Source of the DNA: a virus
IMG/VR virus record: IMGVR_UViG_3300046477_000234
Location: 1 to 23,758 of that record
Length of the DNA stretch: 23,758 nt
Reading direction: 5' to 3' (one strand)
The position numbers and the translations under genes are program-made. Every line of letters starts with the position of its first letter. Positions within the stretch are counted from its first letter, which is position 1. Below the pieces are notes generated by a model. The model did not search any database and was not told the DNA's origin. It saw only the letters and a list, made by a program, of their open reading frames with translations. This document shows, piece after piece, positions 2,837-23,560 of the stretch.

Positions 2837-3232
2837 TCAGCGATCAGATCCGCTTCCATGGAGAGTCCCGGCCTGTTTCCTTGCCATGAGCTTTTCGACA
2901 TTCGTTCTCGCAATCTCTTCCAACGTTGTTCCGATCTCACGGCCGAGCGCATTGACGTACCAGAGAACATCTCCAAGTTCCTTGATCAGGGCCTGACGCT
3001 TTGCCTTGGTCATCTCGTTGCCCTGATCCCGGATCATCTTCTTGTATTCTTCTTGGATTCTCCCTGTCGAAGCGCAAACCATTAGGGCCTGAACGAGCGC
3101 CTCGGCAACTTCACCGCCCTCTCCTCCAAGGCCAAGCAACGGGATCGGAGGGTTAACGGATGGATACCGAGAAACCTCAAGAGCCGTTTTGCTGTACAGC
3201 TTGAATGTGAGGTCCGGCAGTTCTTCACTCAC
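2837..3232 (-). CDS. MazG-like nucleotide pyrophosphohydrolase
   Basis: 131 residues from a GTG at 3232 that overlaps the upstream TGA (GTGA), with an AAAGGGGG run upstream. The protein shows the all-alpha NTP-pyrophosphohydrolase signature: GLGGEGGEVAEAL (ExxE-type metal ligands), then KELGDVLWYVNALG (ExxD), then the typical NVEKL-x-R and HGSGSDR tail. Such enzymes convert (d)NTPs, sometimes aberrant ones or (p)ppGpp-related molecules, to monophosphates. Phage copies have been proposed to tune host alarmone levels or clean nucleotide pools. The substrate cannot be read from the sequence. A second, divergent enzyme of this fold is fused to a HAD phosphatase at 21.5-22.5 kb. Confidence 0.85.
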   Translation of the reverse strand: MSEELPDLTFKLYSKTALEVSRYPSVNPPIPLLGLGGEGGEVAEALVQALMVCASTGRIQEEYKKMIRDQGNEMTKAKRQALIKELGDVLWYVNALGREIGTTLEEIARTNVEKLMARKQAGTLHGSGSDR

Positions 3233-3723: not shown

Positions 3724-4153
3724 TGCCTTCCTCCGTTAAATGTTTCTTAACCCAGATATCCATCTTCTTTGACCACTCTTTGACCTTCTCGATTTTCCTC
3801 ATCGTCCCGACCGCTCTTGAATGGACATAGCGGTAGGTCCGCTTTGTCCGCTTGGCGATCTTGTTGAGGATCTGTTCCTGTTGGGCCCAACGCTTGAAGT
3901 CCTTATCCTTCTTCGCAATCTTTATCCGGGCGCAAGCGAGCGCCGCCATGTAGTCGTACATGTTCGCCATTAGGGATTTTGTCGTTGGGATCAGGAGATA
4001 CGATCCTGCGAACAGATTCAGCATCTCCAGAAACTTCGCCTCTCCAAGCCAAGCCTTGATTTCATTCAGGCTCGAGCGGGCATTCTGGTAACAGATGAAG
4101 TCTGTCAGGCTGACGCCAAGCTCTTCATCGTAGCGGTCTTCGACGATTTTCAT
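3701..4153 (-). CDS. Putative DNA-binding protein, possibly Mor-like
   Basis: 150 residues. The ATG at 4153 overlaps the TGA of the sigma-like gene (ATGA), so the two are probably made together. The middle contains FAGSYLLIPTTKSL, reminiscent of the 'GG..IYIPK' segment of Mor/C activators. It is followed by helices and a basic region, QILNKIAKRTKRTYRYVHSRA, that could be a helix-turn-helix. Similarity is faint. If correct it would be a transcription activator next to a sigma-like protein. Otherwise it is a helical hypothetical protein. Confidence 0.35.
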   Translation of the reverse strand: MKIVEDRYDEELGVSLTDFICYQNARSSLNEIKAWLGEAKFLEMLNLFAGSYLLIPTTKSLMANMYDYMAALACARIKIAKKDKDFKRWAQQEQILNKIAKRTKRTYRYVHSRAVGTMRKIEKVKEWSKKMDIWVKKHLTEEGNGSDKGC

Positions 4154-5443: not shown

Positions 5444-5642
5444 CCTTTATCCTCGCACACAGTTCCATTAGGTCATCGACGGAGATTTCAAGATGTCTGA
5501 AGGAGAGTCGCCGGATGCATTCCGTGATGTACCGGGGCGTTTCCTCAAGAAGGCGGTGGACATTTGTATCGAGCGCAATGTGGTTGGCCTTGATCCACTC
5601 GATCAGCTGCTTTGCGTCGTTCTTGTCCGTGTGATCATACAT
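5436..5642 (-). CDS. Small hypothetical protein
   Basis: 68 residues. I place the start at the ATG at 5642, which overlaps the end of the SbcC-like gene, with CGAGG about 10 nt upstream; an ATG at 5666 in the same frame has a poorer RBS. The sequence is helical and charged (KQLIEWIKANHIALDTN..., VDDLMELCARIKDA), with a His/Asp-rich start. No family is recognised. Its position between the gp46-like and nuclease genes suggests a link to recombination, but that is context only. Confidence 0.5.
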   Translation of the reverse strand: MYDHTDKNDAKQLIEWIKANHIALDTNVHRLLEETPRYITECIRRLSFRHLEISVDDLMELCARIKDA

Positions 5643-8278: not shown

Positions 8279-8843
8279 GTTTCGTATCCCTAATCATCGT
8301 TACCAGATTTTCAAAGGCTTCTTGAACCTCGAGCCTCGCCATCTCAAGTTCCTCGCAGATACAAGGCATCAAGGTCTTCCCGTCATCGCAGTTGTCGCAT
8401 CGAAGCGCCTTTGCCTTCTCCATCGCTTCGAAGATTTTCAAGACCTCGTGACGCTGACGGATCATCCGGATGATGTTGTCTCCGATCTTATTTGTCTTTA
8501 CGATCTCAAGGATCTCGGTTGCGCAGGTGCAGAACGCACAGGCCGTCGCCGGATTCTTTTTGTCATGCGGCGGGTGATCCTTAGAGCCCGCCGAATCCCG
8601 GACCCAAGACAGGAGGTCATGGATCTTCGTCTTCAGGGAAGCGGAGGCGGTGTGGGCGTGAACGAATTCTTCATTCAGCTTCTTGTATTCAAGCTGTAGC
8701 TCCCCAAGCTTGAGGCGAAGGCGGGAGCCATGAATCTCACGACAGGCCGTGCAGAAATGACTAAGAAGGATTGCAGGAAGGCTGTGGCAAGCACACCCGC
8801 AGTCCTTGTTCTCTTGTTCGATTTGTTTATTTGAGTAGCTCAC
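8268..8843 (-). CDS. Cys-rich coiled-coil protein, function unknown
   Basis: 191 residues from a GTG at 8843 overlapping the TGA of the SbcD gene (GTGA), with GAGGCAGAGG upstream. Cys clusters appear three times: CGCACH plus CTAC near the N-terminus, CAFCTC in the middle, and CDNC plus CIC near the C-terminus. They are separated by heptad-like helical stretches (LGELQLEYKKLNEEFVHA). The spacing suggests several zinc sites on a coiled-coil scaffold. It lies between the SbcD and SbcC genes, so it may be a cofactor of that nuclease, but nothing in the sequence proves it. Confidence 0.65.
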   Translation of the reverse strand: MSYSNKQIEQENKDCGCACHSLPAILLSHFCTACREIHGSRLRLKLGELQLEYKKLNEEFVHAHTASASLKTKIHDLLSWVRDSAGSKDHPPHDKKNPATACAFCTCATEILEIVKTNKIGDNIIRMIRQRHEVLKIFEAMEKAKALRCDNCDDGKTLMPCICEELEMARLEVQEAFENLVTMIRDTKLDE

Positions 8844-9967
8844 AGAGCCTCTGCCTCTTGGATTAGTTTGAGCCCTGCCCGTAGAAGACTCTTGACCGAA
8901 TGGCCTTCAGGCTTGCTACGCTTAATGTACCGTGTAAGGGTCCGGTCTTGACGATCTTCCAATCGGAGCCGTGGCCGATTATTAGCGGCATTCTCTTTAT
9001 CGCCTTCCTCCAAGCTAAGAGTGAAGCCCTTTGCTTCCGCCTGAAGGATTTCATGTACATCCTTAACATGTACCGCTTCAGAAACCTTGCAGGCAACGTA
9101 GTTCCCCCGTATCCGGCGGACAAATCTATTGACTTTACCAGGAACGAATTCAACCCGAACAAACTCAGAGTAAACTCCCGGAACGAATCGGAGGGTGTTG
9201 TCGGTTGTGGAGAGGGTCCAAGAGCCTCGACGACTTCCGACGTCTCCAAAATTATGGTGTACAGGAGCACCTGGAATGAGGATAGACCCGCCCGCGTAGC
9301 TCTTTGGAGTATAGATTTCAGAAACCTTATGAGACTCATACCCATCTCCCGGAGACATCAGTTGGGGCTGGTGGAAATGCCCCGCAATTAACAGTTGGAT
9401 CTTTGAATCCTTCAAGCCCAGCTTCCCCGGCTGGACAAAGTTCTTCATGTCGGCAATGTAATCAAACCCAGCAGTAGCTCCAGCGAAGCCTGTATGACAG
9501 AGTACAACAGTAGACCCATAAACGCCCCGAAGGCAATCCAGAAAACGCTTGGGATTTGTCGTGTAAGGAATCCCAGAAATCTTCGTCCCTGCGATTGTAG
9601 TCGTCTGCCCTTCTCGTCTATCGAGAACAACACATCCAGCAGATCCATGGAGACTCCTCAAGGTATGGAACCGGGACATCTTCGAAGCTTCGTCGTGGTT
9701 CCCGGGGATCATGATGATGGGGATCTTCGACAGCCTCAAGAGGGTTGCCGTCAGGTCCATCGTCACGGCGTCGATTTTCGGGACATGGAACAGATCCCCA
9801 CTGAAGAGGATCGCATCGCAGCTTTCCTCGTGAGCGTCTTGGATAATCCTCCCGACCGCCTCTAGGATCTCGGTTAGACGGGTGTTGACGCCCTTCTTCG
9901 TGAGCCGCGCAAAGGCGGTCCACGGGTGGATGTGGGAATCGGAAAACAGTTTGAACTTAGCCACCAA
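8840..9967 (-). CDS. sbcD: SbcD/Mre11-like nuclease (T4 gp47-like)
   Basis: 375 residues. All calcineurin-type metallophosphoesterase motifs are present: FSDSHIHPW, FSGDLFHVP, MIPGNHDEA, VLCHTGFAG and IAGHFHQPQ. These bind two metal ions (Mn in homologues) and give endo/exonuclease activity on DNA ends. The C-terminal third is basic and probably binds the gp46-like subunit. The start is TTG at 9967 or the adjacent GTG at 9964. Both lie inside the end of the previous gene, after an AAGG/AAAGGG run, and I cannot decide between them. Confidence 0.92.
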   Translation of the reverse strand: MVAKFKLFSDSHIHPWTAFARLTKKGVNTRLTEILEAVGRIIQDAHEESCDAILFSGDLFHVPKIDAVTMDLTATLLRLSKIPIIMIPGNHDEASKMSRFHTLRSLHGSAGCVVLDRREGQTTTIAGTKISGIPYTTNPKRFLDCLRGVYGSTVVLCHTGFAGATAGFDYIADMKNFVQPGKLGLKDSKIQLLIAGHFHQPQLMSPGDGYESHKVSEIYTPKSYAGGSILIPGAPVHHNFGDVGSRRGSWTLSTTDNTLRFVPGVYSEFVRVEFVPGKVNRFVRRIRGNYVACKVSEAVHVKDVHEILQAEAKGFTLSLEEGDKENAANNRPRLRLEDRQDRTLTRYIKRSKPEGHSVKSLLRAGLKLIQEAEAL

Positions 9968-11387: not shown

Positions 11388-12794
11388 TTACTTCTTCTTC
11401 ATCTTCCGGAGACGTTCAAGAGCGTCCTTCACGTCCTTTTTGCCGCCGCTCTTGTCCTTCTTTGAGGACTTCTTGTCGTCCTCATCGTCGTCTTCGTCTT
11501 CGTCCTCCTCTTCCTCGTCATCATCCTCCTCGTCGTCCTCGTCTTCGTCGTCGTCCTCTTCGTCCTCGTCGTCATCCTTGGACTTGGATTTCTTCGACTT
11601 CTTGTCCTTCTTGGACTTCTTGGAGGGCTTTTCGTCCTCGTCGTCTTCGTCCTCGTCTTCCTCCTCCTCCTCCTCGTCGTCCTCCTCATCCTCGTCGTCT
11701 TCGTCTTCGTCCTCGTCCTCGTCGTCCTTGGACTTCTTCTTTTTCTTCTTGTCGTCCTTGGACTTCTTCTTTTTCTTTACGCTGTCCTTTTTGTCGTCTT
11801 CTTCGTCGTCATCATCTCCATCATCATCGTCATCATCGTCGTCATCATCTCCGTCGTCGTCTTCATCATCGTCATCGTCGTCCTCATCCTCATCATCATC
11901 TTTGGACTTGGATTTCTTGGACTTCTTTGACTTCTTGTCCTTTTTGCTCTTTGAAGAAGACTCATCATCGTCTTCGTCTTCTTCATCATCGTCGTCATCG
12001 TCCTCTTCATCTTCTTCGTCTTCATCGTCGTCCTCGTCGTCATCGTCATCCTCCTTTTTGGATTTCTTCTTCTTGTCCTTGTCCTTCGACTTCTTCTTCT
12101 TGGCCTTGGGCTCGTCGTCCTCCTCGTCGTCATCCTCCTCGTCGTCGTCCTCATCTTCCTTGTCTGAGGAGCCGCCTTCCATGGCCATGATGATGTCCTC
12201 GGGGTCCGGATATTCAACCAGACCCTCCAGATCAGCCGCGTTCTTCATGATCTTCTCCACTCTGTTTACCGGGCTCGGATCTTTCGCAGTACGGACAGCG
12301 TACTTGGTGTCCAGCCCTTCTCCGCTTTTCTCGATGATGATGTCGTAGCCCCGCTGGGGGTCCGAGATATCCCCCCATTCATCGTCCGCGAAGTACGACA
12401 GAATCTGGTCGTAAATCTGCGGACCCGACTTGAACACCTGAGAGACATTGTCCCCGGCCTTGCGGTCGATGATGTTGTAGTAATACTGCTTCTTCGCCTT
12501 GATCGACCGGGCCAGTTCAATATCCCCGGGGTCCTTCGACTTGAACAACTTGCCGACTGCCTCACAGGCAGGGCAGGCCTTGCCGATGTCCTTCGGACAG
12601 GCTAGGCCCTGATCCCCGATGTTGTAGTGGATCGCCGCTTCCTTGTAGAACGTGTCCTGATCCCCCTTCGGAGGGAGGATGCGGATTTTGTTCTTCCCGT
12701 CTTCCGGCTTCCACCACGAGCGACCCTGCGTGTCCTTCTTCTTTTGGACATCTCGCATGGCCTTCTTCATCTTCTTCAGGTTTACCGTACCCAC
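11388..12794 (-). CDS. gp32-like ssDNA-binding protein with a very long charged tail
   Basis: 468 residues from the GTG at 12794, with AGGAGG 5 nt upstream. Residues 1-205 form the folded part: a basic N-terminus (cooperativity arm in T4 gp32), WWKPEDGKNKIRILPP, and a zinc site His57, Cys66, Cys74, Cys77 as in gp32, followed by OB-fold-like strands with aromatic residues (KKQYYYNIID). From about residue 211 to 440 runs a tail of Asp/Glu blocks alternating with Lys/Ser blocks. It ends with a basic, helical segment (KDVKDALERLRKMKKK). T4 gp32 has only about 50 acidic residues at its end, which recruit replication partners. The protein coats ssDNA for the polymerase and RecA systems encoded around it. 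Confidence 0.88.
   Translation of the reverse strand: MGTVNLKKMKKAMRDVQKKKDTQGRSWWKPEDGKNKIRILPPKGDQDTFYKEAAIHYNIGDQGLACPKDIGKACPACEAVGKLFKSKDPGDIELARSIKAKKQYYYNIIDRKAGDNVSQVFKSGPQIYDQILSYFADDEWGDISDPQRGYDIIIEKSGEGLDTKYAVRTAKDPSPVNRVEKIMKNAADLEGLVEYPDPEDIIMAMEGGSSDKEDEDDDEEDDDEEDDEPKAKKKKSKDKDKKKKSKKEDDDDDEDDDEDEEDEEDDDDDDEEDEDDDESSSKSKKDKKSKKSKKSKSKDDDEDEDDDDDDEDDDGDDDDDDDDDDGDDDDEEDDKKDSVKKKKKSKDDKKKKKKSKDDEDEDEDEDDEDEEDDEEEEEEDEDEDDEDEKPSKKSKKDKKSKKSKSKDDDEDEEDDDEDEDDEEDDDEEEEDEDEDDDEDDKKSSKKDKSGGKKDVKDALERLRKMKKK
11474..12164 (-). repeat. Imperfect trinucleotide repeat tract encoding the Asp/Glu/Lys tail
   Basis: About 690 nt built almost only of GAT/GAC/GAA/GAG and AAG/AAA/TCC/TCC-like codons. 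On the plus strand it appears as TCN repeats and opens a long false poly-Ser frame. Four internal basic modules (such as KSKKDKKSKKSKKSKSK) interrupt five acidic blocks. The repetition suggests growth by slippage or unequal recombination, so its length may vary between isolates or be misassembled. Confidence 0.8.
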
Positions 12795-12822
12795 GCAATC
12801 CTCCTAGATTGAATCAGAACCT

Positions 12823-13293
12823 CTACTGCTTCCGCTTGCTCTTGATGCTCAGTTCAGAATCATATTGTGCCCTCCTATTAGCTCCAATTGAAATCAGACA
12901 GTCCTTCTTCTGGGCTGACGCTTCCCGGGCGGCCTGAGAAATCTCATGCTGCTCCTTCGCCTCGAGAAGCTCGTTGATCTTCGCAAGCCTCGTCGGGTTG
13001 GAGATGATGAGCTGCTTGATCCGGCCCTCCGTCATCTTCTCCTCCCCTTCCTTCCCCTTCGACTTGCTCTTGGCATCCCGGATCGCCGTATCGAGATTTG
13101 CTTCAAGCTCCTCGAGCGAATATTCAAGCCGCTCAACCTTTGCCTTTGCGAGAGCCGCAATCCGGCAGTATCTGCCGTGGTCTTCCGGCTGACGGCATAG
13201 AAGGTTGTCGAGATCAGCCTCGTCGATCATGAAGCTCTCGAAATCAATCGTGAACTTCCGGGCCTCGTCAATGAGGATCTTCACCTTAGCCAT
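12823..13293 (-). CDS. Coiled-coil protein, UvsY-like mediator candidate
   Basis: 156 residues from the ATG at 13293 (AAGGAG 8 nt upstream). A short beta-like N-terminus leads to FMIDEADLDNLLCRQPEDHGRYCRIAALAKAKVERLEYSL, then a long charged helix, then KMTEGRIKQLIISNP and a final helical and basic end (SIKSKRKQ). The layout, 'I-D-x-x-x-L-D ... Q-P' followed by coiled coil and a T-E-x-x-I motif, resembles small phage mediators such as T4 UvsY in size and order. The gene is next to the SSB gene, as a recombination mediator would be. The sequence match to UvsY itself is weak, so the call is tentative. Confidence 0.4.
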   Translation of the reverse strand: MAKVKILIDEARKFTIDFESFMIDEADLDNLLCRQPEDHGRYCRIAALAKAKVERLEYSLEELEANLDTAIRDAKSKSKGKEGEEKMTEGRIKQLIISNPTRLAKINELLEAKEQHEISQAAREASAQKKDCLISIGANRRAQYDSELSIKSKRKQ

Positions 13294-13489
13294 GCCTGAC
13301 GCTCCTTATTTTCATTCCAGCCATCGAGAAATTCTTCTTGTAGCCTAGAGCCCGCTTGAACTGACGGCAATCCGAGTGATGAAGGCAGGGCCCAAGATTT
13401 TTCCTCAAGCCAATCGTCCGGTGGGATTGCCTCGTGCAACCGCACTCGCAGTGAACCGTCCGGGGCCATTGTCTGAAGCAGATCGTCAC
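13286..13489 (-). CDS. Small Cys/His-rich zinc-binding protein
   Basis: 67 residues from the GTG at 13489, overlapping the TGA of the UDG-fusion gene (GTGA), with AGGA 7 nt upstream. It contains HCECGCTRQSH and then CLHHSDCRQFK, a C-x-C-x-C...H...C...C arrangement seen in many small phage Zn proteins. The stop overlaps the ATG of the next gene (ATGGCTAA). An alternative ORF in another frame over the same bases (13281-13514) lacks these features. Function unknown. Confidence 0.6.
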   Translation of the reverse strand: MTICFRQWPRTVHCECGCTRQSHRTIGLRKNLGPCLHHSDCRQFKRALGYKKNFSMAGMKIRSVRHG

Positions 13490-14871
13490 AAGAAATTCCT
13501 AACAACAGTCGCAAACTCGGTCAGGGCTTTCTGGAGGACCGGGAGATTGGCGGCCCTATCGTAGAGAGCCGACGCGGGGTGGAGACAATAGGTGACCCAA
13601 GCTTCCGCTCGGTTATTCCACTCCGTTTTCCCGCTCCACTCCGTGATCCCTTTGTTAATCTTCCTGAAGTAATATAACGCTGAGTTTCCGGATGCTAAGA
13701 TGAATTTCGGGCGGAATCTTTTGATTGCTTCGGTTGCCCAAGGACACTTCGTGACGTAGGTAATATTAGGAAGCTTGTTGTTTGGCGGGCGGCACGCAAC
13801 AGTATTTGCGACAATACAATCGTTTCGCCTAATACCAACCTTCTCGAGTTCATCGAACAACAAGCGTCCGGATTTTCCGATGAAGCCTCGGCCTTCTCGG
13901 TCCTCTTGTTCCCCCGGTGCTTCTCCAAGAACCATGAGATTGAGTCTTCCAATTGACGGCGGAACAGGCGCGTGACAGCCTTTATGCAATGGGCACAGGG
14001 TACAAGCTTTGACTTTCTTCTTCCACTCTCTCTCTTCGAAGCCATCTTTGTCTATGCCTCCAACAATCGGCAGCTCGATCTTCCCCGGCCTTCCCTTTGC
14101 GATCTGAGAGAGAAGCCGGAAATCCTCAATCATTACATTCTGCTTCCGGGCGAACGGAACATTCGCTTGAAACACCGCCACTTCGCCCTTAATGTTCTGG
14201 ATCGTCTCCCGCCTCTTCTTGTAAAGCTTCGGGGAATAAATCCCCATCGTGAAGGTCGTCCCATCATCAAGATTCCCATAGATCCCGCCAAGAGCATCAG
14301 CAGTACCAACATTTTTCTTTTCCCCGGCGGCCTTCGCCCTCTCCTTGTATCCGAACTTGATTGAGGTCGCCTGAGCGATGATGTTCCTCAGCTTCATGTC
14401 TTTCTTGGAGTTGTCGATGTCCTTGATCTTCTGAACAGGGACCGTCTCCATGATAAGCTTACAAAGCCGCCGATACTCCCCGAAGATATCGTTGCTCGTC
14501 TTGAAGTTGAGGGCCTCGGCTTGCTCGTTCAGGACTTCATCCAGCTTCATCTCCCAGTCCTGCTCGATGGATTTTCTCTTCTCGTCTAGGACCGCCTCGA
14601 GCTTCTTCGTCCCAAGCAAGGGGTACAGTTCGTCAAAGTGCATCTTCCAGAGCTTCGCCTTCTCCTCTCCAAGGAGATTATCAAAGGCGCTACTGTAGAC
14701 GAGCATCTTGACGACTCGGACGTTGACTTTCCTGCGGTCAATCGTGTCGATGAACTGATTGAAGTTCTTGAATTCCCCTCCGCAGCGCTCCCGGGCCGTC
14801 AGGATCGCCTCTTGCGCTGTCTCCCCGCACATCTTGACTTGACTGAGGCCCGCCCGAATTTTCTCTTTCAT
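13486..14871 (-). CDS. DnaE C-terminal half (HhH + OB) fused to Fe-S uracil-DNA glycosylase
   Basis: 461 residues from the ATG at 14871, which overlaps the TGA of the upstream DnaE gene (ATGA). Residues 1-66 (IRAGLSQVKMCGETAQEAIL ... RRKVNVRVVKML ... SAFDNLL) match the helix-hairpin-helix part of family-C polymerases, directly continuing the upstream protein. Residues about 160-240 look like the DnaE OB fold (GTTFTMGIYSPKLYKKRRE). From about 285 there is a family-4-type UDG: Cys290, Cys293, Cys360 and Cys376 as 4Fe-4S ligands, GEAPGEQED (316-324), CRPPNNKLP and HPASALY (431-437). The enzyme would excise uracil at or near the replication fork. UDG fused to a family-A polymerase is known in phage SPO1; fusion to a split DnaE is new to me. 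Confidence 0.88.
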   Translation of the reverse strand: MKEKIRAGLSQVKMCGETAQEAILTARERCGGEFKNFNQFIDTIDRRKVNVRVVKMLVYSSAFDNLLGEEKAKLWKMHFDELYPLLGTKKLEAVLDEKRKSIEQDWEMKLDEVLNEQAEALNFKTSNDIFGEYRRLCKLIMETVPVQKIKDIDNSKKDMKLRNIIAQATSIKFGYKERAKAAGEKKNVGTADALGGIYGNLDDGTTFTMGIYSPKLYKKRRETIQNIKGEVAVFQANVPFARKQNVMIEDFRLLSQIAKGRPGKIELPIVGGIDKDGFEEREWKKKVKACTLCPLHKGCHAPVPPSIGRLNLMVLGEAPGEQEDREGRGFIGKSGRLLFDELEKVGIRRNDCIVANTVACRPPNNKLPNITYVTKCPWATEAIKRFRPKFILASGNSALYYFRKINKGITEWSGKTEWNNRAEAWVTYCLHPASALYDRAANLPVLQKALTEFATVVRNFL

Positions 14872-17399
14872 TCTGTCACCGTCCAACCCGCCTCGGACTT
14901 ATTGATGTCCGGAGTCACCGCCTTGAGCCCCATTCGCTTCGCCTCCTTAAGGGCAATGTCGATCTTGTCTTCGGCTGAAGCAGCGTCTTCCCCACCGACC
15001 GATCCGAAGTTGAGATGGGCCGTGAAGAACTGTAGAGGATACTTGATCTTCAGCCACATCGTCAGGTAACTCAGGATTCCATACTCAACAGCGTGGGACC
15101 GATTGAAGGCATAGATACCGAAGAATTTCAGGTTGTCGAAGAATTCCTCGGCCTCGTCATACTTCATCGTCCCCTTTTTGACGCAGCCCTTGGCGTACAT
15201 CTTTTTGTAGGTCTTCCATTTGTCCGTCCCTTCGGACTTCGAAATGACCTTGCGAACCTGATCGGTTGTTTTCCAAGGGATGCCAGCCATATTGTACAGC
15301 AGGAACATGATCTGTTCTTGGTAGATGATCTGCCCGCAGGTTGCCTTTGTAATGTCCCGATGGATGTCGTTGAAGTATTCCGCCTCCTCCCGGCCTAGCT
15401 TGATCTGCATGTACTTCTGCGTGATCCCGGCCTTCAAGCATCCCGGCCGCCAGAGAGCGGAGGAGTCTACCAATGTTTCGAAGTCTGAGACTTCAAGCTC
15501 CTTGCAGTATTTCTGTAGGCCCTTCGATCCGATCTGAAAGGCGCAGACAGTGTTCCCCGCCCGGATCTCTTTGTAGATGTCGGGGTCGTGGAGCCCGATT
15601 GTATAGTAATCAAGCTCCTTCCCGTACTTCTCCCGGATCAGCCGCCTCGCCTCGTTCATGACCGACAGGGTTGACAGGCCGAGCACGTCCAGCTTCATTA
15701 GGCCCATCTGCTCAAGGTCTTCCTTGTCCCAGTTGACCGTCAGCCTTCCGTTTCTTTTTACAAGATAGCAGTTGCCGGCCTCTCTCAGGTCCTTCTTGCT
15801 GACGACATAGCCCGCTGCGTGGACTCCGCAGGTCTTGATCTGGCCTTCGATCTTCGAAGCATACTTGATGACGTGCGGATATTTCTGATTGAACTTCTTT
15901 GCCTCTTCGAAGACTTCGACGGTGTCAAGGATACTGAAAGAGGCTCTCGCGTCCATTTCCGGCCGGATCAGGATACACTTCGACATCCCATCCGCCTCGG
16001 CTCTTGGGACTTCAAAGAGTCTCGAGACATCCCGGACCGCCTGTTTCCCTCTCATGACCCCGAAGGTTGAGACGTGGGCAACATTCCATTCGCCGTACTT
16101 CTCCTTCAGGTACTTTTCAATGAGGTGCCGCTTGCGATCCTCAAAGTCAATATCAATATCCGGAAGGTCTACACGGCCTTCCGAGATGAATCTTTCAAAG
16201 ATGAGATTGTGTTCAATCGGGTCAACTTCAGTGATCCGGAGAAGATAAGCAACAAGGCTACCACCGACAGAACCTCGTCCGTGTCCAACCAGAATGTCGT
16301 TGGATTTTGCCCAGCAAATGAGATCAGCAACCAGAAGCATATACCGTACAAAACCACCATGGATCATCGCCTCCAGTTCCAGATGACAACGGTTAATGTA
16401 CTTCGACTTGTTCAGCCCTCGCCTCTCCAGTTCCTTCCGGCACTTGTCGATAAGGTAGGATGTTTCGTCGATGCCCTCTTCAAGGACCCGGGGGAGATCA
16501 ACGGGGACTTTTTTCATTTCGAACTGACACTTCTCCGCAACTTCCATTGTGTTCCAGATCGACGCCCTTGCGACGTCCCGCTCGATCCCCATAAGCTGAA
16601 GGGAATCAAACATCTCTTGGGCGTCCCGCATGTAGTTCAGGTGCGTGTCGAACTTCCAACGGTTCGGATTATTCCAAGTCATCCCCTTCTGTCCGATCCC
16701 AAGGATGACATCGTGGATCTTGTGGTCCTTCTCGCACAGGAAGTGGATATCGTTCGTCGCAATCGGATTGATTCCCAGTTCGTCGGCGGCCGTCAACGCA
16801 AGCGTGTTTACATTCCCCTGATGGGCTAGGTCGTGCAAGGGCATGATCTCTGCGTAGAGATCCTCCTTGAAAGCTTCATAGTATTGGCCCAGCAGGTCAA
16901 TCCCCTTCTCCGCATTCCAGAATGGGCTTGAGGCGCATCCTGTTTGAATGATGACGTCCCCGGCCCAATCATTTTTCAACGGGTAGTCCATCGGCAGGAA
17001 GGGCCGCGAACTCCAGCCCCGTTTCGCCGTCCCGGAGATGTTCGCGTAGCCGAGTCCAATCAAAAGCTTCTTGAACCCTCTCTCATTCTTCGCATGGGCA
17101 ATCAGGTGTAGGTTCTTGTGCTTGAACTTTAAATCGTCCTTCTTGTCCCAATGCTCGAGCATGTACAGCTCGCAGCCGAAGATGGGCTTGATCTTGTATT
17201 CCTTTTTCTCCTTGTCGTAGCAAGCGTTATTGAACTTGATCACCCCGTCCATCGACCCGTGGTTAGACGTCGCAATGTACTTGTGGCCCTTGTCGATGGC
17301 CCCCTTCACAAGGTCTTTGACTTTCACCGCCCCGTCGAGGAGGCTGAACTCATCGTGGACGTGGAGGTTTACAAAGTCTTTGTTCTTTAGCTTTTTCAT
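14868..17399 (-). CDS. dnaE: DNA polymerase III alpha-type polymerase, N-terminal and catalytic part
   Basis: 843 residues. The ATG at 17399 overlaps the TGA of the preceding gene (ATGA). The PHP domain comes first, with metal ligands His13 and His15 (LHVHDEFSLLDG), His47 (TSNHGSMDGV), Glu77 (GCELY) and ATNDIHFL near 214-221, so it looks intact and may proofread. The palm has GHGRGSVGGSLVAYLL (372-387), catalytic PDIDIDF (Asp416, Asp418) and LMKLDVLGLSTL (Asp571). NRSHAVEYG lies near the end. The protein stops at GWTVTE, exactly before the HhH domain, which the next gene encodes. Together the two halves give a normal DnaE length (about 1100 residues) before the UDG. It should be the phage replicative polymerase. 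Confidence 0.95.
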   Translation of the reverse strand: MKKLKNKDFVNLHVHDEFSLLDGAVKVKDLVKGAIDKGHKYIATSNHGSMDGVIKFNNACYDKEKKEYKIKPIFGCELYMLEHWDKKDDLKFKHKNLHLIAHAKNERGFKKLLIGLGYANISGTAKRGWSSRPFLPMDYPLKNDWAGDVIIQTGCASSPFWNAEKGIDLLGQYYEAFKEDLYAEIMPLHDLAHQGNVNTLALTAADELGINPIATNDIHFLCEKDHKIHDVILGIGQKGMTWNNPNRWKFDTHLNYMRDAQEMFDSLQLMGIERDVARASIWNTMEVAEKCQFEMKKVPVDLPRVLEEGIDETSYLIDKCRKELERRGLNKSKYINRCHLELEAMIHGGFVRYMLLVADLICWAKSNDILVGHGRGSVGGSLVAYLLRITEVDPIEHNLIFERFISEGRVDLPDIDIDFEDRKRHLIEKYLKEKYGEWNVAHVSTFGVMRGKQAVRDVSRLFEVPRAEADGMSKCILIRPEMDARASFSILDTVEVFEEAKKFNQKYPHVIKYASKIEGQIKTCGVHAAGYVVSKKDLREAGNCYLVKRNGRLTVNWDKEDLEQMGLMKLDVLGLSTLSVMNEARRLIREKYGKELDYYTIGLHDPDIYKEIRAGNTVCAFQIGSKGLQKYCKELEVSDFETLVDSSALWRPGCLKAGITQKYMQIKLGREEAEYFNDIHRDITKATCGQIIYQEQIMFLLYNMAGIPWKTTDQVRKVISKSEGTDKWKTYKKMYAKGCVKKGTMKYDEAEEFFDNLKFFGIYAFNRSHAVEYGILSYLTMWLKIKYPLQFFTAHLNFGSVGGEDAASAEDKIDIALKEAKRMGLKAVTPDINKSEAGWTVTE

Positions 17400-17590
17400 T
17401 TGGCTCTTGAATCCTCGAGTTCATCCACGCAAGCGTTGTCCCAGATGAATCCTCTCCGGACATCCGTTTCCGTAAGCCGCTGAAGAACAAAGGCGAATTC
17501 GCCCGGCTTTATTTTCGCCTTACAACGCCAGCAGCAAAGAACAGTATCGAACTTCACCTTGAACTTGAAAATGATCTTGAGGGGTTTCAT
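17396..17590 (-). CDS. Small zinc-ribbon protein upstream of dnaE
   Basis: 64 residues from the ATG at 17590 (MKPLKIIFKFKVKFDT). The frame is open to 17779 but covers the real 36-residue gene and the end of the previous gene there. It has CCWRCKAKIKPGE, half of a zinc ribbon, and a later NACVDEL that may provide a further ligand. The RBS is weak (GGATC about 8 nt upstream), which suggests coupling to the preceding stop codon 2 nt away. The stop overlaps the ATG of dnaE. Function unknown. Confidence 0.6.
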   Translation of the reverse strand: MKPLKIIFKFKVKFDTVLCCWRCKAKIKPGEFAFVLQRLTETDVRRGFIWDNACVDELEDSRAK

Positions 17591-17726: not shown

Positions 17727-18305
17727 TCAGGTAGGGTTTCCATTTTCCAAAAGCTTGATTGCATTGTCGATCCTAGCAAGCTCCGGATTGTCCCGGATGA
17801 AAGCTTGAATGATCTTGTCCCGTTCCCCCTTCAGCATCGTTACGGCTGCCCCAACAGGGTCATCCGGAAGCTTCAGCTGCTCATCCGGCGGGAGCTTAGG
17901 CCCAGTCGTTTTCTTGCCCGGCAGATAAACATTCCCCTTGCACTTTGCCTCATGCTTGTCGGCATACCATTGGCCGGCAGCGAACTTCTTCCCGCAGATT
18001 CCGCATTCTCCGGCAGCCTTCGCCTTCGCAAGCTTCTTCACGGCAATCGCCTCCTTCTTCTTGTACGTACTCGTCTCACCATTCTCAACGGCTTCGCATG
18101 CCTTCCCGGCAATCTGTTCCTCGATCTGTTCAAGGGTCATCTCCCCGGCCGACTGCCCCGTTGGCTCTTGGCGGCCGTCTGCCCCAAGGATCCAGCTATG
18201 AAGACATCCAAGATTCTTGCAGTCGTAGCTGGTCCGATGACTTCCGAGATCATGGACGACAACGTCCTCCTTCTCACATTTAGGACAGCCAACCGTCTTC
18301 ACCAT
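17727..18305 (-). CDS. Two-module zinc-finger protein
   Basis: 192 residues from the ATG at 18305, with GGGAGGGG just upstream. The first module (GCPKCEKED ... YDCKNLGCLHSW) is a Cys4 ribbon. A Glu/Ala/Lys-rich helical linker follows, then CGICGKKFAAGQWYADKHEAKC, a CxxC-x(n)-H-x(n)-C finger close to the 'CPxCGK...H...C' type. The C-terminus is helical (DKIIQAFIRDNPELARIDNAI), ending KLLENGNPT. It may bind DNA or RNA, but I cannot identify a family. It lies between the nucleotide block and the polymerase genes. Confidence 0.7.
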   Translation of the reverse strand: MVKTVGCPKCEKEDVVVHDLGSHRTSYDCKNLGCLHSWILGADGRQEPTGQSAGEMTLEQIEEQIAGKACEAVENGETSTYKKKEAIAVKKLAKAKAAGECGICGKKFAAGQWYADKHEAKCKGNVYLPGKKTTGPKLPPDEQLKLPDDPVGAAVTMLKGERDKIIQAFIRDNPELARIDNAIKLLENGNPT

Positions 18306-18314
18306 CGCCCCTCC

Positions 18315-18485
18315 CTAGTTTTCATCCGCCGATATTGAAAACACCCGGTCAGGCTGTTCAAAGCAGATTATATCGACCGCAACAAGATAGCCCGAGTCTT
18401 GAGTCATGTCCCTCATCTCATGACGCTCAAGAGCCCCCTTCTCGGGCTCGAGCCGCTTCCCACACCCCGGGCAATAAATTGTCAT
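18315..18485 (-). CDS. Small zinc-ribbon protein
   Basis: 56 residues from the ATG at 18485, with GGAGGG 6 nt upstream inside the end of the ThyX gene. It begins MTIYCPGCGKRLEPEKG, a one-sided zinc knuckle, and has a single later Cys (DIICFEQ), so metal binding may need a dimer or partner. The frame continues upstream to 18545 but overlaps ThyX there. Function unknown. Confidence 0.6.
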   Translation of the reverse strand: MTIYCPGCGKRLEPEKGALERHEMRDMTQDSGYLVAVDIICFEQPDRVFSISADEN

Positions 18486-18486
18486 C

Positions 18487-19311
18487 CTATTCCCTCCGAT
18501 CAAGCTCAACAAGATGATCAACGACGTTCGACCGAATTTCTTCATCCGATTGCATGTACCCCTTCAGCTCAATAAAAAGTGGGCACACGTGGTCGGTGTT
18601 CGATCTCCCTTCAAACTTTTTCTGCCGGGCCTGCATCTCGTTCTCCGGGATCATGATACAAGGTCCGAATCGGCAGGGCTCTCCGAAGGCTTCCGCCATC
18701 ACGGCGGGCATCTTTCTCTTGAACTCCTCGAGCATGAGGAGCGCGACGTGCTGGAACTCGCCTTGAGTCTTCAGGCAGAACCGCTTGTTCATCATGTCGA
18801 TGAAGGCTTGGAGGTTACAGGTGAAGCTCACCGTCGAATAGATATTCAACGGAAGGATTCCCCGGGCGTCCTGAACCGTCTCGCCAAGGTTAATCATCCG
18901 GTTGTACCGATCCTCGATTGCTTGCATGGACTTATGGAAGTCCCCCTTGTCTTTGACGGTCGCCGGGATATGGTACATCCCTCGAGCCGCAAAGTCTTCA
19001 ACCGCAACAACCCGCAGACTCTGGATTGAATACGAGAATCCAAGCGTATGCCGGGTTAGCTGTTGCTGTAAGGCCCTCGAGACATTCTCGAGGACCCAAT
19101 CAAGGCTGACCCACCTGAAGAAGGGCGACAGCTTGTCCTTGATGAGCGTTCGGAACATTTCCTCGAGCTTCTCTTTTGGGACCGTCGCCTCAATCTCATC
19201 GTAGTCGTGCGTTAGGCTCTCGCTCTGGATTTTCTTTGCGTGATAGATCCTCGCCAAGGAATGCTTCCCCGGATCGCCCTGAAGGAAAACTTTTGGCCGC
19301 AGCGTTTCCAT
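18487..19311 (-). CDS. thyX: Divergent flavin-dependent thymidylate synthase homologue (ThyX)
   Basis: 274 residues from the ATG at 19311, with GGAGG 5 nt upstream overlapping the previous stop. The ThyX core is clear: NVSRALQQQLTRHT, then GFSYSIQSLRV, then LNIYSTVSFTCNL and NKRFCLKTQGEFQHVA, matching the family's 'SRA..HQLVRHR', 'S.R', 'LYT...WT.N' and 'NLR...AQ.E'. ThyX makes dTMP from dUMP with FAD, NADPH and methylene-folate. Several usual residues differ. The 'PFEH' segment reads PFFR, the RHR motif reads RHT with one extra residue before the conserved Ser, and S-x-R-Y reads S-L-R-V. It may have altered substrate or chemistry, or simply be a diverged thymidylate synthase. Confidence 0.8.
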   Translation of the reverse strand: METLRPKVFLQGDPGKHSLARIYHAKKIQSESLTHDYDEIEATVPKEKLEEMFRTLIKDKLSPFFRWVSLDWVLENVSRALQQQLTRHTLGFSYSIQSLRVVAVEDFAARGMYHIPATVKDKGDFHKSMQAIEDRYNRMINLGETVQDARGILPLNIYSTVSFTCNLQAFIDMMNKRFCLKTQGEFQHVALLMLEEFKRKMPAVMAEAFGEPCRFGPCIMIPENEMQARQKKFEGRSNTDHVCPLFIELKGYMQSDEEIRSNVVDHLVELDRRE

Positions 19312-19312
19312 T

Positions 19313-20350
19313 TCATCCTCCAATCCTAAGACCAATCAACTTGAACCAATTGTACGCAACTCTCTTCGGGTCATGGAACTTTCTAAGAAACCGATGGTTG
19401 CTCTGAACCATCCGGTGGTGATGCCTCCTATAACGCGTGTTCGTTTGATCCTTAACGATTTCTCCGCAGGTCTTCTCGTTAACGTGGAACTTCGGACGCT
19501 TCCGCTCAATCGTCCATGCGGGGTCCGGAAGCCAGATCGCCTCATAGCCGTAGTTCCAGCCCTCAAACGAGATGGGGACGTGGCCCAACGCCATCGCCTC
19601 CATCGGGACAAACTGCGACCGCCCCATCTCGAATTCCGCCGGAACCGAAAGATCAAAGGCAAACTTGTACGGAAGCAGCCGGTTGTAATCCTCGTAGCCC
19701 TTCAGCGGCTTCTCAAACCGGATTCCCCGTTTGCTGCGATCCTTCATGTACCAGTAGGCTGCTCCATCGGGCTTGGAGAAGAAATGGACCTTCTCGCCTT
19801 TCGGGAGCATCTTCGGGATCATATGCGAACACTTGAACGTTGCGATCCTTGTCCAAGAACAGAAGCCTCTTCGACTCTCCCAAGAAACTCCTTCAAGGTC
19901 TGCGGACCAGAGTTCCTCTGGCATATCGTAGAAGGGGTGTATGACATTTATCCAACGTCTCCCGTCAAGGACAGACCTTGGGTAAACGTCGTCCCTCCCG
20001 ATATAGGCGAAGTTGTCGATCATTACATGGAGCTTCTGGCAGTTCGCGGTCTTTGAATTATTGTATTCGTGCTGGTCTCCATGCAAGATCGCAGACACCG
20101 GGATATTCTTGTCGATTGCCGCCAGTACAACATCCCGGCATTCCTTGGATGCCGTATGCTTGTTGATCACCGGGATCAGAAGCGCATCGCAGCCCTCGAG
20201 ACTTTCAGGCCTCGAGAGCTTCCTAAGCTGAAGCCCATGGTCCTTGAACATTTTCGAGAGATGATGCCTGAACAGCGTCGTTACGCCCCCGAACAGTCCG
20301 TATCCATCCGGGCTCTTGTACGGGAACGGCTTCAAGATTCCGAGTCTCAT
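19313..20350 (-). CDS. Glycosyltransferase, GT-B fold (GT4-like)
   Basis: 345 residues. The ATG at 20350 overlaps the TGA of the preceding gene (ATGA). The N-terminal Rossmann half starts MRLGILKPFP with a Gly-rich stretch (GYGLFGGVTTL). The C-terminal half has the acceptor/donor segment EFEMGRSQFVPMEAMALGHVPISFEGWNYG, in which 'P-x-E-A-M-A-x-G-x-P' is the sugar-nucleotide site typical of GT4-type enzymes. It would transfer a sugar from a nucleotide sugar to an unknown acceptor. Phage DNA, a modified base, or a surface glycan are all possible. Its place between Nmad1-like and ThyX-like genes favours a nucleic-acid role, but this is inferred. Confidence 0.75.
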   Translation of the reverse strand: MRLGILKPFPYKSPDGYGLFGGVTTLFRHHLSKMFKDHGLQLRKLSRPESLEGCDALLIPVINKHTASKECRDVVLAAIDKNIPVSAILHGDQHEYNNSKTANCQKLHVMIDNFAYIGRDDVYPRSVLDGRRWINVIHPFYDMPEELWSADLEGVSWESRRGFCSWTRIATFKCSHMIPKMLPKGEKVHFFSKPDGAAYWYMKDRSKRGIRFEKPLKGYEDYNRLLPYKFAFDLSVPAEFEMGRSQFVPMEAMALGHVPISFEGWNYGYEAIWLPDPAWTIERKRPKFHVNEKTCGEIVKDQTNTRYRRHHHRMVQSNHRFLRKFHDPKRVAYNWFKLIGLRIGG

Positions 20351-20754
20351 TTGTCAAGGACCTTCTTCAGGAAGTCAACCCCATCCGCTCCGCACTTCGT
20401 ACAGCCCAGCATCTTCTCATACTTGTCGTCCCCGTAGGGGAGATTAGCTTGGGCCGCAAGCTCCATCAGGACAGTGAAGTTCCGCATGTCCATCGTGCAG
20501 TTCATCAGCTCCTTCATCCACACCGGATCTTTGGTGTTCATCGTCCGGTTCCAGATCATCTCACGGAGCCGATTGTAAATCGAATGGATCTCGACAAACG
20601 CCCCAAGGATTCCCGTGGACTTCCAACAGTCATTCCGCTCCGTGTTCTTGTTGAGCATGATCTCAAACGCTTGCCGGCAGTTCTCAACAAGGTCGAGATT
20701 GACCTTGGCCCGCTCATCGGCAGGGCCGTCATAGACGAGCATCAGCTTGATCAT
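20347..20754 (-). CDS. Nmad1/DUF1599-like all-alpha protein
   Basis: 135 residues from the ATG at 20754, which overlaps the TGA of the SDR gene (ATGA) with GGAGG 6 nt upstream; the frame extends far upstream but only over the SDR gene. The pattern NKNTERNDCWKSTG, then FVEIHSIYNRLREMIW, then ELMNCTMDMRNFTVLMELA resembles the DUF1599/Nmad1 family ('K-x-x-D-Y...G...EI...K-x-x-R-L', 'D-x-x-x-D-x-x-N-Y-x-V-L'). That family is related to MazG and dUTPase helical bundles and was proposed to act in modified-nucleotide metabolism. A CTKC pair lies near the C-terminus. The assignment is moderate. Confidence 0.45.
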   Translation of the reverse strand: MIKLMLVYDGPADERAKVNLDLVENCRQAFEIMLNKNTERNDCWKSTGILGAFVEIHSIYNRLREMIWNRTMNTKDPVWMKELMNCTMDMRNFTVLMELAAQANLPYGDDKYEKMLGCTKCGADGVDFLKKVLDK

Positions 20755-21542
20755 CGGAGTCCTCCCGTCAGGTTGATTGCGTTGCCAGAAAGATAGGAAC
20801 AGTTCCCGGAGATAAAGAGCTGAACGACTTTTGAAATCTCCTCCATCGACAGGAGCCGATCCCGGATCATCCCGGATCTCCAGTAATCGGTCGCTGCCTC
20901 CTGACCGATCTTGCGGAGCTTCTGGATTCTCTTGATTGTCTCGGCCTCCATCGGGCTTCCGTCGATGTTCGACGGGTTGATGCAGAGGACGTTGTAATTC
21001 TTCGGGGCCAACTCCCACGCCATACACCGCGTCATCATCTCGAGTCCGGCCTTGCTCATGCAATACGGGGCCGATCCGTTCAGCGGGACTCGAGCTGCCA
21101 TGCTTCCAATATGGACGATGTACTTGCGGCAGGGATACTTCATCGTCAGCTTTACAAACTGCTGAGAGAGATTGTACGCCCCGATCATGTTCGTCTCGAT
21201 AATCTCCCGGACCCGCTTGATGGAGTAGTCCTCAAACCATTGTAGATCCATGATCGCAGCGCAGTTGATCAGGGTCGTCGTCGGCAGATCGTCCTCTGAA
21301 TCGACAGGGTCCATAACAGTTTTCAGAGCCTTCCGGATTTTCTCAGGCTCCCAACGGACGTCAAGCTGCTTCTGCGTCAACGTTGTCTGGAAGCAGCCAT
21401 GGAGCCGTCTTCCGATTGCACCACCAAGCCCTTTTTCGTTGTAGCCCGTGATGAGGACCTGCCCATACTTATGGACGTCCTTCATGCCTAAATACTTTTT
21501 CTTCAGGCCCTCGATGTGCTTCTCGGATGATGCCTTGCTCAT
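20751..21542 (-). CDS. Short-chain dehydrogenase/reductase (SDR)
   Basis: 263 residues from the ATG at 21542, chosen for its GGAGG 5 nt upstream, although it overlaps the previous gene by 74 nt; an ATG at 21485 with a weak RBS would shorten the overlap. The NAD(P)-binding start reads ITGYNEKGLGGAIG (TGx4GxG). LINCAAIMD is the 'NNAG' equivalent. The catalytic tetrad is Asn118, Ser147, Tyr160 and Lys164 (GSMAARV, YCMSKAG), then INPSNIDGSPM. It ends SYLSGNAINLTGGLR, as classical SDRs do. It would oxidise or reduce a hydroxyl/carbonyl group, perhaps on a sugar or nucleotide intermediate made by its neighbours. Confidence 0.9.
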   Translation of the reverse strand: MSKASSEKHIEGLKKKYLGMKDVHKYGQVLITGYNEKGLGGAIGRRLHGCFQTTLTQKQLDVRWEPEKIRKALKTVMDPVDSEDDLPTTTLINCAAIMDLQWFEDYSIKRVREIIETNMIGAYNLSQQFVKLTMKYPCRKYIVHIGSMAARVPLNGSAPYCMSKAGLEMMTRCMAWELAPKNYNVLCINPSNIDGSPMEAETIKRIQKLRKIGQEAATDYWRSGMIRDRLLSMEEISKVVQLFISGNCSYLSGNAINLTGGLR

Positions 21543-22479
21543 TCGATCCTCCAAGTAATTCCTTGAAATCCTTGAAACGGGTAACGGGCAGCCCTCTTGT
21601 GTCTCCTTGATTGTACGTCGTCTCCCGAAGATAGACCTGAATCCCTTTCGAGGCAATCTTCAGGGCATTCTCGAGCGTGTCCTCAACGACAAACTTCGCA
21701 AACGTATAGTCCTTGATGATCCGGTCTTCCTTGTTCTCGTCGAAGATGATTGAATGGTAGGGGAATCCAAATCTCCGGAGCCAGCAGATCGTATCGGCCA
21801 TGATCCGTTTGTATTTCTTGTAGGGCCTTGCGGTCATCAGCAGGATGTAATAGCCGTCTGCTTTTAGCGCGGTCATGAATTCAAGCGCCCCGGGGATCGC
21901 ATCGAGCCCTTGGGATTCCGTTCCCGTCTCCCGGAACTGATGCTTGAGTTCATAAGCCCGCTCGTGGCCGATGAAGCGGCCAACGTGGGCATAGAACTCC
22001 TGCCCATTCAAGAGAGGAGGGATTTCAACACCAGTCCTTTCCAAGATGAACTCAAAGATCCCTTTGATATAGTCGGCTAGAACTCCGTCGATGTCAACAA
22101 CTGCGCATCCGCAATACTTCGTTGCGTCCCACGGATTCGAGAACTCCTGAAGATACTTCTGCTCGACAACCTCCGTCTTCCGCTCCCATTCGGTTATGAA
22201 CTCTTTCTCGTTGATGTTCCAGATCAAGGCGAGTCCATTCCAGTACTTGAAGATGTCGATGATCTCTTCCCGGATATTCGCGTGGACAAGGCTTGCCCGT
22301 TCCCGGCGATGCATCTTCCAGCTCAGGTTCTTCAGCAAGTCCATTAGCTCGTCTTGAATGTACAGGACAAAGTCTTTCGTCAGGGCTTCCTGTTCGGACT
22401 GAGAGAGACTTCCAAGGTTGGGGTTGAAGTTCCGATTGAACTCCGCTTGTCGCTTCCAGATTCTCGCTAGCTCATCCAT
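21469..22479 (-). CDS. Fusion of dUTPase/MazG-type pyrophosphohydrolase and HAD phosphatase
   Basis: 336 residues. The N-terminal part (about 36-115) is helical with FVLYIQDELMDLLKNLSWK and NIREEIIDIFKYWNGLALIW, the E-x-x-D/E ... E-E-x-x-D metal pattern of all-alpha dUTPases and MazG-like enzymes. The C-terminal part (about 123-320) is a HAD hydrolase: CAVVDIDGVLADY (Asp129, Asp131), LLMTARP, and FVVEDTLENALKIA. Together they could take a dNTP to dNMP and then to nucleoside, removing an unwanted nucleotide or making a building block. It is the first gene after the 22.5 kb control region. The last 30 residues are overlapped by the SDR gene. Confidence 0.75.
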   Translation of the reverse strand: MDELARIWKRQAEFNRNFNPNLGSLSQSEQEALTKDFVLYIQDELMDLLKNLSWKMHRRERASLVHANIREEIIDIFKYWNGLALIWNINEKEFITEWERKTEVVEQKYLQEFSNPWDATKYCGCAVVDIDGVLADYIKGIFEFILERTGVEIPPLLNGQEFYAHVGRFIGHERAYELKHQFRETGTESQGLDAIPGALEFMTALKADGYYILLMTARPYKKYKRIMADTICWLRRFGFPYHSIIFDENKEDRIIKDYTFAKFVVEDTLENALKIASKGIQVYLRETTYNQGDTRGLPVTRFKDFKELLGGSNEQGIIREAHRGPEEKVFRHEGRP

Positions 22480-22660
22480 CGCCCATCTCCCCCTAGGGAG
22501 CCCCTCTCAATAGAAGTCGTCCAAATGCCTTTTGACCCCCGTTTACCCCCGGGGGAACGCCAAACCCCATTTCATCCCTATAGGTGGCATTTATGGCAGT
22601 CCAAATGGGGATTTGCAGGCTGCGTAGGCAGAAAAGTCCCATTCTAGCCCTCCCCTCCCC
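22480..22660 (-). promoter_or_regulatory. Intergenic control region with repeats and promoter-like elements
   Basis: 181 nt without a gene. On the minus strand it has a sigma70-like pair TTGGAC (22604-22599), 16 nt, TATAGG (22582-22577). Then come CCCCCGGGGG (22546-22555), GGGTAAA (22548-22542), exactly 23 nt, GACTTCTA (22518-22511), CCCTAGGGG (22498-22490) and the ATG at 22479. The GGGTAAA-N23-GACTTCTA-...-CCTAGG order repeats the 1.9 kb region. CATTTGGAC occurs twice. The features fit a promoter with an operator; which element is the start site is unknown. Confidence 0.5.
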
Positions 22661-22682
22661 CTAGGGGAGCCGCTCCCCTAGG
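22660..22682 (-). repeat. 23-nt perfect palindrome over the stop of the oxidoreductase gene
   Basis: CCTAGGGGAGC (22660-22670) and GCTCCCCTAGG (22672-22682) are exact inverted copies around one base, and the TAG stop is part of it. As RNA it would form a strong stem, but a purine-rich run, not a U tract, follows on the minus strand. It may terminate transcription from upstream, or be a protein-binding site sharing CCCCTAGGGG with 1847-1856. Confidence 0.65.
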
Positions 22683-23560
22683 CCCTCGGACTCCTCCCAG
22701 ACATGACTCGTCAAGCCCTTGGGACGCCACTGTCCGTATCTCCCCGCAAGCGTCACGTTGTACTCCATCAGGAAGTCGGTCAGCTTCGACAGGTCTTCTT
22801 TGTCCCGGTCATCGTGAAGCCAGATTTTCCCGGGGAACAGCTTGATTGAATCCCGATGCGTCGGGACGTCTGCGTACTCGGATGTGATCACGACCTTGTG
22901 GCCAAGCCGTTTGACGGTCCTGCGGTAATACTGGTGGCAGCCCTCGGAGCAATAGTCAACTTGGAGTTCGTCTCCGATCTTCCAATTGTAGCGGCTCTCC
23001 GGGGCTTCCTCACGGATGATGTAGATGGGCTTGTGGCAGAATCGTGGACTCCGGATGTGTTTCGAGATAGCCGAATTGTTATGGAGGCTGATTTTGGTGA
23101 GGACCGGGAGAGGGATGGTAGAAAGGAGGGAGGAGTATTTCCAGCACCGGCCCTGCGTGTCGTAGACGCATTGAGTGTCAAGGTCTACGCAATCGACTTC
23201 GGAGAGGACGACGTTGATTGGGTTTGCTAACTTTGAGGTTGAGTAGTTCCAGCCTTTGCCTGTCTCGATCTTCCCGGCAACTCCGAACCTTGCGAAGGAG
23301 CTTGAATCAAGGTTCGCTTTCGGATCGCCATAGACTTTCATCGCATAGTTCTGGACCGATCCTCCGGGACAAGCATCCGAGATGATCTGATACGGAGGAT
23401 CTATCGTGAAGGGATTCGGGGCGTGCGAGTAGAAAAAGCCTTGATCGTTCCCGCTCTTCATCGGCCCGGCCTTATCAAGAATCGCAAACCTCCGGCCTGA
23501 AGAGTGGAGACGGTTTGCCAACATTAGGCCGGAGATCCCGGCCCCAAGGATGACGATCAT
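22661..23560 (-). CDS. FAD-dependent oxidoreductase, UDP-galactopyranose mutase/amine-oxidase-like
   Basis: 299 residues from the ATG at 23560 (MIVILGAGISGLMLANRL), the classic GxGxxG dinucleotide-binding start; a start 30 nt upstream in frame is less likely. The following acidic Asp (FAILDKA) is where FAD ribose binds. Near the end, AGRYGQWRPKG is the second FAD-contacting motif found in UDP-galactopyranose mutases and related flavin oxidases ('GR-x-G-x-W'). It is shorter than usual (mutases have about 370). The substrate may be a nucleotide sugar or an amine; with the glycosyltransferase downstream, a sugar role is attractive but not shown. Confidence 0.75.
   Translation of the reverse strand: MIVILGAGISGLMLANRLHSSGRRFAILDKAGPMKSGNDQGFFYSHAPNPFTIDPPYQIISDACPGGSVQNYAMKVYGDPKANLDSSSFARFGVAGKIETGKGWNYSTSKLANPINVVLSEVDCVDLDTQCVYDTQGRCWKYSSLLSTIPLPVLTKISLHNNSAISKHIRSPRFCHKPIYIIREEAPESRYNWKIGDELQVDYCSEGCHQYYRRTVKRLGHKVVITSEYADVPTHRDSIKLFPGKIWLHDDRDKEDLSKLTDFLMEYNVTLAGRYGQWRPKGLTSHVWEESEGLGERLP

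Follow-up and report, generated by a model that had tools for sequence, protein, structure and literature searches.

The 23.8 kb linear virus record IMGVR_UViG_3300046477_000234 (23,758 nucleotides, analysed whole as the window) carries a tightly packed minus-strand run of genes at 17.4–23.56 kb that leads into a DnaE-type polymerase gene and contains a homologue of the thymidylate synthase ThyX with altered active-site residues. This block appears to represent a single lineage of a module that is widespread in phages and would supply their DNA with a modified pyrimidine deoxynucleotide. We favour, as the most parsimonious reading and with a probability of about 0.55, a pathway built on ThyX that yields a 5-substituted dUMP, sugar-decorated in some lineages, with its chemistry predicted and each chemical step inferred. 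The sequence-only reading had named a set of genes in the block, and every one of them is found in its place on the minus strand; the short-chain dehydrogenase/reductase (SDR) and ThyX proteins pass their Pfam cut-offs and the HAD protein passes that of NT5C. The block is syntenic throughout with that of a 51.5 kb contig (IMGVR_UViG_3300047160_002644, hereafter the sister, whose terminase and tape-measure genes were read from its open reading frames), with protein identities of 59–80%. The window-sister dN/dS values of the block genes are 0.06–0.25 by synonymous-site comparison, and all of the main block genes are under purifying selection. Synteny at this level of identity and these ratios show that the block is not there by chance, and rule out a pseudogene reading as well.

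An altered ThyX homologue

The ThyX homologue (positions 18487–19311) belongs to the Thy1 family (PF02511, 103.4 bits with a cut-off of 24.8) but scores 80.6 bits with the equivalog profile TIGR02170, below the cut-off of 87.9. As a ruler we used the Thermotoga maritima ThyX sequence in the form we take to be correct, the C-terminal part of which matches the PDB alignment. Against it, DKLSPFFRW of the window aligns to GHETPFEHI, and RHTLGFSYSIQSLRV to RHRIASYNELSGRY. The change of active-site motif described in the sequence-only reading is real, with RHT...SLRV replacing RHR...SGRY; the RHRX7S pattern is absent, RHT or RHK being followed by one extra residue, and S88 and R90 are still present. 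The window protein thus lacks H53, Y91 and the RHR motif and retains R90, R147, N163 and R174. In a set of 96 non-redundant ThyX proteins drawn from phages and contigs, three have H53 and three have Y91, Q75, R78, R90, R147 and R174 are near-invariant, and the residues that bind dUMP and flavin adenine dinucleotide (FAD; R78, R90, R147, N163, R165 and R174) are mostly retained. H53 of the T. maritima enzyme makes a stacking contact with folate or flavin, and its Y91 probably serves as the general acid; mutation of Y91 slows flavin oxidation approximately 1000-fold, and both residues are conserved and important in canonical ThyX (PMC11940539, PMC8316439). Judged by its residues, the window protein is not an ordinary ThyX, from which it differs also in its fixed partner genes while keeping the arginines that contact dUMP.

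Joint loss of H53 and Y91 defines a single group. In a maximum-likelihood tree of 135 rows, in which the T. maritima protein and those of contigs L012 and L042 have long branches, all 84 rows with both losses, including the window, form one clade (support 100/97); we refer to its members as variant ThyX. Contig L042 has two ThyX-family genes (3483–4091 and 8983–9759), a variant ThyX and a divergent copy that keeps Y91. The latter was not counted as a normal ThyX beside a variant one, because its RHR motif is changed.

Conserved neighbours across phages

A hidden Markov model survey of fetched loci shows that the variant ThyX has constant company. In Wifcevirus, Luteibacter, Gordonia and Streptomyces phages a set consisting of the FAD protein, variant ThyX, a HAD protein with or without a MazG-like domain, an SDR and a VOC protein lies beside DnaE, and the order FAD-ThyX-HAD-(SDR-VOC)-DnaE recurs. 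The module is present, whole or in part, in isolated phages of at least six genera, and relatives include Pbunavirus, Wifcevirus, Lambovirus and Carpasinavirus; Pbunavirus has a minimal form with the FAD, variant ThyX, HAD and DnaE genes and without SDR, VOC or glycosyltransferase (GT) genes. To keep the count unbiased, neighbours were tallied only where ThyX similarity alone had led to the locus and at least 3 kb flanked the gene on either side. Where H53 and Y91 are both lost (n=32), FAD is a neighbour in 32, HAD in 29, DnaE in 32, SDR in 14 and VOC in 11; where both are kept (n=50), the corresponding counts are 1, 1, 3, 1 and 0. The Fisher probability for the FAD association is 6e-22, a value that overstates independence since the variant genes are one clade. 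The sole both-kept locus with a FAD neighbour is the second ThyX-family gene of L042. These counts show a long-conserved linkage. The sequence-only reading had pointed to homologous phages keeping ThyX without any of the neighbours as a finding that would speak against it; this was looked for and not seen, all 32 variant genes having the FAD neighbour. Co-occurrence strongly backs a dedicated ThyX-centred nucleotide-modification module. The interpretation given in the sequence-only reading is supported in part and is considerably broadened here; it missed both the nature of the FAD protein (below) and the spread of the module through hundreds of phages.

The estimate of hundreds rests on ThyX matches, with residues checked in a sample of them: 391 phage records (288 from Pseudomonas phages) and a further 576 confirmed viral-contig stretches. 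Among 104 other neighbours of variant ThyX genes, Pfam identifies radical-SAM, GT2, sulfotransferase and Nmad5 genes. The neighbours of ordinary ThyX genes (104) are led by ribonucleotide reductase, dUTPase, DNA methylases and PhoH among the best 25 of 88 families. ThyA (PF00303) was found in none of 15 records that have all or some of the module, three complete phages among them, nor among the scanned window proteins, and no ThyA was found in place of ThyX in the SDR loci that lack it.

Enzymes of the block

The FAD gene that the sequence-only reading placed before the block is present (22661–23560), and its product is predicted by profile and fold to be like UDP-galactopyranose mutase (UGM) within the amine-oxidase superfamily. 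Pfam sees only the Rossmann segment (PF13450, 24 bits); the protein is of the phrog_8720 type and has the motifs GxGxxG, STIP, YYR and GRYGxWR. A family profile built from 13 sequences has as its best PDB match the UGM 4dsg (E 7.9e-8), with which the Rossmann, STIP, YRA and GR[YF]xW segments are co-linear; the FAD_B profile by itself gave no PDB match at 0.001. UGMs are also at the top in both Foldseek and VIA for an AF2 model (pLDDT 65; Z 18.4), with protoporphyrinogen oxidases second (VIA Z 16.0). A search of genome contigs yielded just two relatives. The protein shares with UGM this best profile and fold match and the STIP, YR and GR[YF]xxW motifs, but at only about 300 residues it falls far below the TIGR00031 equivalog cut-off (11.4 bits against 303.75), and any mutase activity is putative. 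Flavin N5 adducts are used by both UGM (PMC7662398) and ThyX (PMC8316439).

Next to it is a gene (21469–22479) for an apparent fusion of a dUTPase_2/MazG-like N-terminal domain to an NT5C-type HAD 5′-nucleotidase. The HAD half of the fusion call stands, with PF06941 at 30.1 bits, above cut-off, and the catalytic motifs DIDG, TAR and EDT. The dUTPase-like half has its ExxD...EExxD motifs but is just under the dUTPase_2 cut-off in the window itself (PF08761, 19.6 bits with a cut-off of 22.9); the orthologue in another member of the group (L276, IMGVR_UViG_3300014656_003390) passes both cut-offs, with 26.2 bits for dUTPase_2. The SDR (20751–21542; PF00106, E 2e-22) is of the phrog_3142 family (E 7e-25) and has all of the catalytic residues S-Y-K. 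The small Nmad1-like (DUF1599) protein (20347–20754) gave no direct match to PF07659. In a further member (L165, IMGVR_UViG_3300012926_000041) the corresponding slot is occupied by a gene that scores 31.2 bits with a cut-off of 25, and its product shares a profile with the window protein.

Glycosyltransferases and sugar genes

The gene at 19313–20350, which overlaps the Nmad1-like gene by four bases, had been labelled a GT-B glycosyltransferase, a label that gains no support from any library or model. The protein has no relative among phages, the PDB or genome contigs, five GT Pfam profiles including GT1, GT4, GT10 and GT47 give nothing at E 10, and an AF2 model from two sequences has a pLDDT of 29. 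It is a conserved gene for a putative glycosyltransferase, being 80% conserved in the sister with a dN/dS of 0.11. L165 has a GT2 enzyme (PF00535, E 1.1e-9) in the slot between Nmad1 and ThyX, and in window, sister and L165 a putative GT or GT2 gene sits directly between the Nmad1-like and ThyX genes. L276 encodes a GT4 enzyme (PF00534, E 1.4e-17), an NDP-sugar epimerase and a GHMP kinase, and GT2-like genes are also found in L149 and L154. That two window-type relatives, L165 and L276, have bona fide glycosyltransferases from unrelated families supports a predicted sugar. In L276, too, a dCMP deaminase gene adjoins the dUTPase/HAD gene, which points to dUMP as the substrate. The L276 sugar cluster as a whole lies downstream of its variant ThyX at 11638–17587 and comprises GT4, NDP-sugar epimerase, methyltransferase, GHMP sugar kinase and E1-dehydrogenase-like genes.

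Proposed pathway and its alternatives

The core of the module would be the UGM-like FAD protein, variant ThyX, the HAD nucleotidase and a MazG/Nmad-like pyrophosphatase, often with SDR and VOC proteins, beside DnaE. In the pathway we favour, dUMP would be supplied by the dUTPase and, in one relative, also by dCMP deaminase. The variant ThyX would bind dUMP and FAD and either attach a non-methyl group at C5 or leave the group unreduced (e.g. hydroxymethyl); a product other than plain methyl is expected from the loss of the histidine that stacks on folate and of the tyrosine acid. HAD and MazG-like enzymes would remove the competing normal nucleotides, and the SDR, VOC and FAD enzymes would build up the C5 group or the sugar donor for it. 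A glycosyltransferase would add a sugar in window-type phages, and the modified nucleotide would then be polymerised by the phage DnaE. A more specific version, which we regard as quite unlikely, is that the flavin N5 of the variant ThyX captures some aldehyde in place of folate-derived formaldehyde and couples it to the C5 position of dUMP, with SDR, VOC and GT proteins elaborating it in hundreds of phages. The UGM-like flavoprotein would perhaps deliver or prepare the aldehyde, and the products would form a new class of thymine replacements alkylated at C5.

Several observations weigh against the favoured pathway. The SDR-HAD-DnaE loci L142, L143 and L153 have no ThyX on the contig (VOC is present in L142 and L143), and the SDR/VOC part may work without the variant ThyX, or these contigs may be incomplete. 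As the variant genes are a single clade, the association could go back to a single old linkage within a replication cassette and not to many independent gains, and the searches described above detected no glycosyltransferase homology in the putative GT of the window. In the literature we came across no nucleoside analysis for a member of the module. DNA of the Pbunavirus JG024 is cut by SacII (PMC3008698), and its relative SCUT-S1 was apparently mapped with HindIII, EcoRI or XbaI (PMC6521218). The former argues against a bulky cytosine or guanine replacement there and the latter, for the minimal module, against full replacement of thymine by a bulky base; bulky complete base replacement is not universal among module phages. 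Hydroxymethyluracil would remain compatible with cutting by HindIII, EcoRI and XbaI. Yeast-made JG024 DNA reboots only after host restriction systems are removed, and the phage itself infects those hosts (PMC10913387), which is consistent with a protective modification but is explained equally well by ordinary host methylation.

The same digests suit another explanation, that the variant ThyX continues to make dTMP through a remodelled active site (with a different acid and a different carbon donor, e.g. formaldehyde) and that the block boosts thymidylate and excludes uracil with the dUTPase and the uracil-DNA glycosylase fused to DnaE. The mostly retained dUMP- and FAD-binding residues fit this, as do the dUTPase-like domain and the glycosylase, which suit uracil avoidance, and the lack of ThyA in three complete phages with the variant gene. 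However, phage ThyX proteins with H53 and Y91 do without these partners and have ribonucleotide reductase, dUTPase and similar genes nearby instead, and the invariant UGM-like partner, the SDR, VOC and sugar enzymes are left unexplained; we consider this a serious but doubtful possibility. That the core serves nucleotide metabolism while the GT and sugar genes decorate something else, such as virion proteins or host surface glycans, would explain why GT genes are confined to window-type phages and a few others, and why the GT4, epimerase and GHMP kinase genes of L276 are 2–7 kb from ThyX with unrelated genes in between. The close order in window, sister and L165, with the putative GT or GT2 gene directly between the Nmad1-like and ThyX genes, makes it unlikely. 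A module that acts during infection on the nucleotide pools of the host, depleting or editing them for takeover or anti-defence, and leaves phage DNA unchanged is very improbable: nucleotide-degrading HAD, MazG-like and dUTPase-like enzymes do adjoin the replisome, but conservation of variant ThyX, SDR and UGM-like proteins and the recruitment of glycosyltransferases would have no explanation.

Relation to known systems

To our knowledge, phage pyrimidine modification uses ThyA-family synthases. In thymine hypermodification of the M6, ViI and SP10 type a ThyA-family dUMP hydroxymethylase is followed by tailoring, and a kinase/pyrophosphorylase set is present. The logic of the module is alike, with a thymidylate synthase homologue, a phosphatase or pyrophosphatase and predicted later tailoring near replication genes, but the synthase is of the ThyX and not the ThyA family (no PF00303 in the 15 relatives), and UGM-like, SDR and VOC proteins stand in place of the kinase/pyrophosphorylase set. 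With T4-type systems (dCMP hydroxymethylase plus DNA glucosyltransferases) the common end product would be a sugar on a modified pyrimidine, whereas the synthase is of a different family, its substrate is probably dUMP, and the SacII-cut Pbunavirus DNA argues against a bulky cytosine. The MetaGPA paper does not mention ThyX. If the proposed pathway is correct, modification of DNA bases has drawn on a second family of thymidylate synthases, and this virus and hundreds of relatives have an altered DNA building block that is not yet described. It would have gone unnoticed in laboratory and therapy phages (Pbunavirus, Wifcevirus, Lambovirus and Carpasinavirus) whose genes are labelled just 'thymidylate synthase', would help to predict which phages escape restriction enzymes, and would point to new flavin N5 chemistry.

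Other genes in the window

Between ThyX and the polymerase are three small minus-strand genes, encoding a Zn-ribbon protein (18315–18485, an open reading frame conserved in L165), a Zn-ribbon/C2HC protein (17727–18305, conserved in the sister and L165) and a four-cysteine (C4) protein (17396–17590) that overlaps the DnaE start by four bases. The polymerase itself, at 13486–17399, is split into two minus-strand genes that are translationally coupled through an ATGA overlap. The first (14868–17399) has PHP, alpha and fingers regions (PF07733, E 4e-78; PF17657; PF02811) with the C-terminus split off, and the second (13486–14871) fuses the DnaE C-terminal HHH region to a family-4 uracil-DNA glycosylase (PF14579, PF03167; GEAPG and HPA motifs). 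The split is also present in the sister, and the L276 DnaE is unsplit (1381 aa). The far end of the window has NADAR, MazG and NUDIX genes (2302–2976, 2837–3232 and 531–1070, respectively), all conserved in the sister; the NADAR gene could have to do with DarT-type defence or with ADP-ribosylated bases. A phage SbcCD pair is suggested by genes for an SbcC-like ATPase (5635–7446) and a metallophosphoesterase (8840–9967). Finally, a 468-aa open reading frame at 11388–12794 has an internally repetitive C-terminal half that matches the sister gene in several registers.

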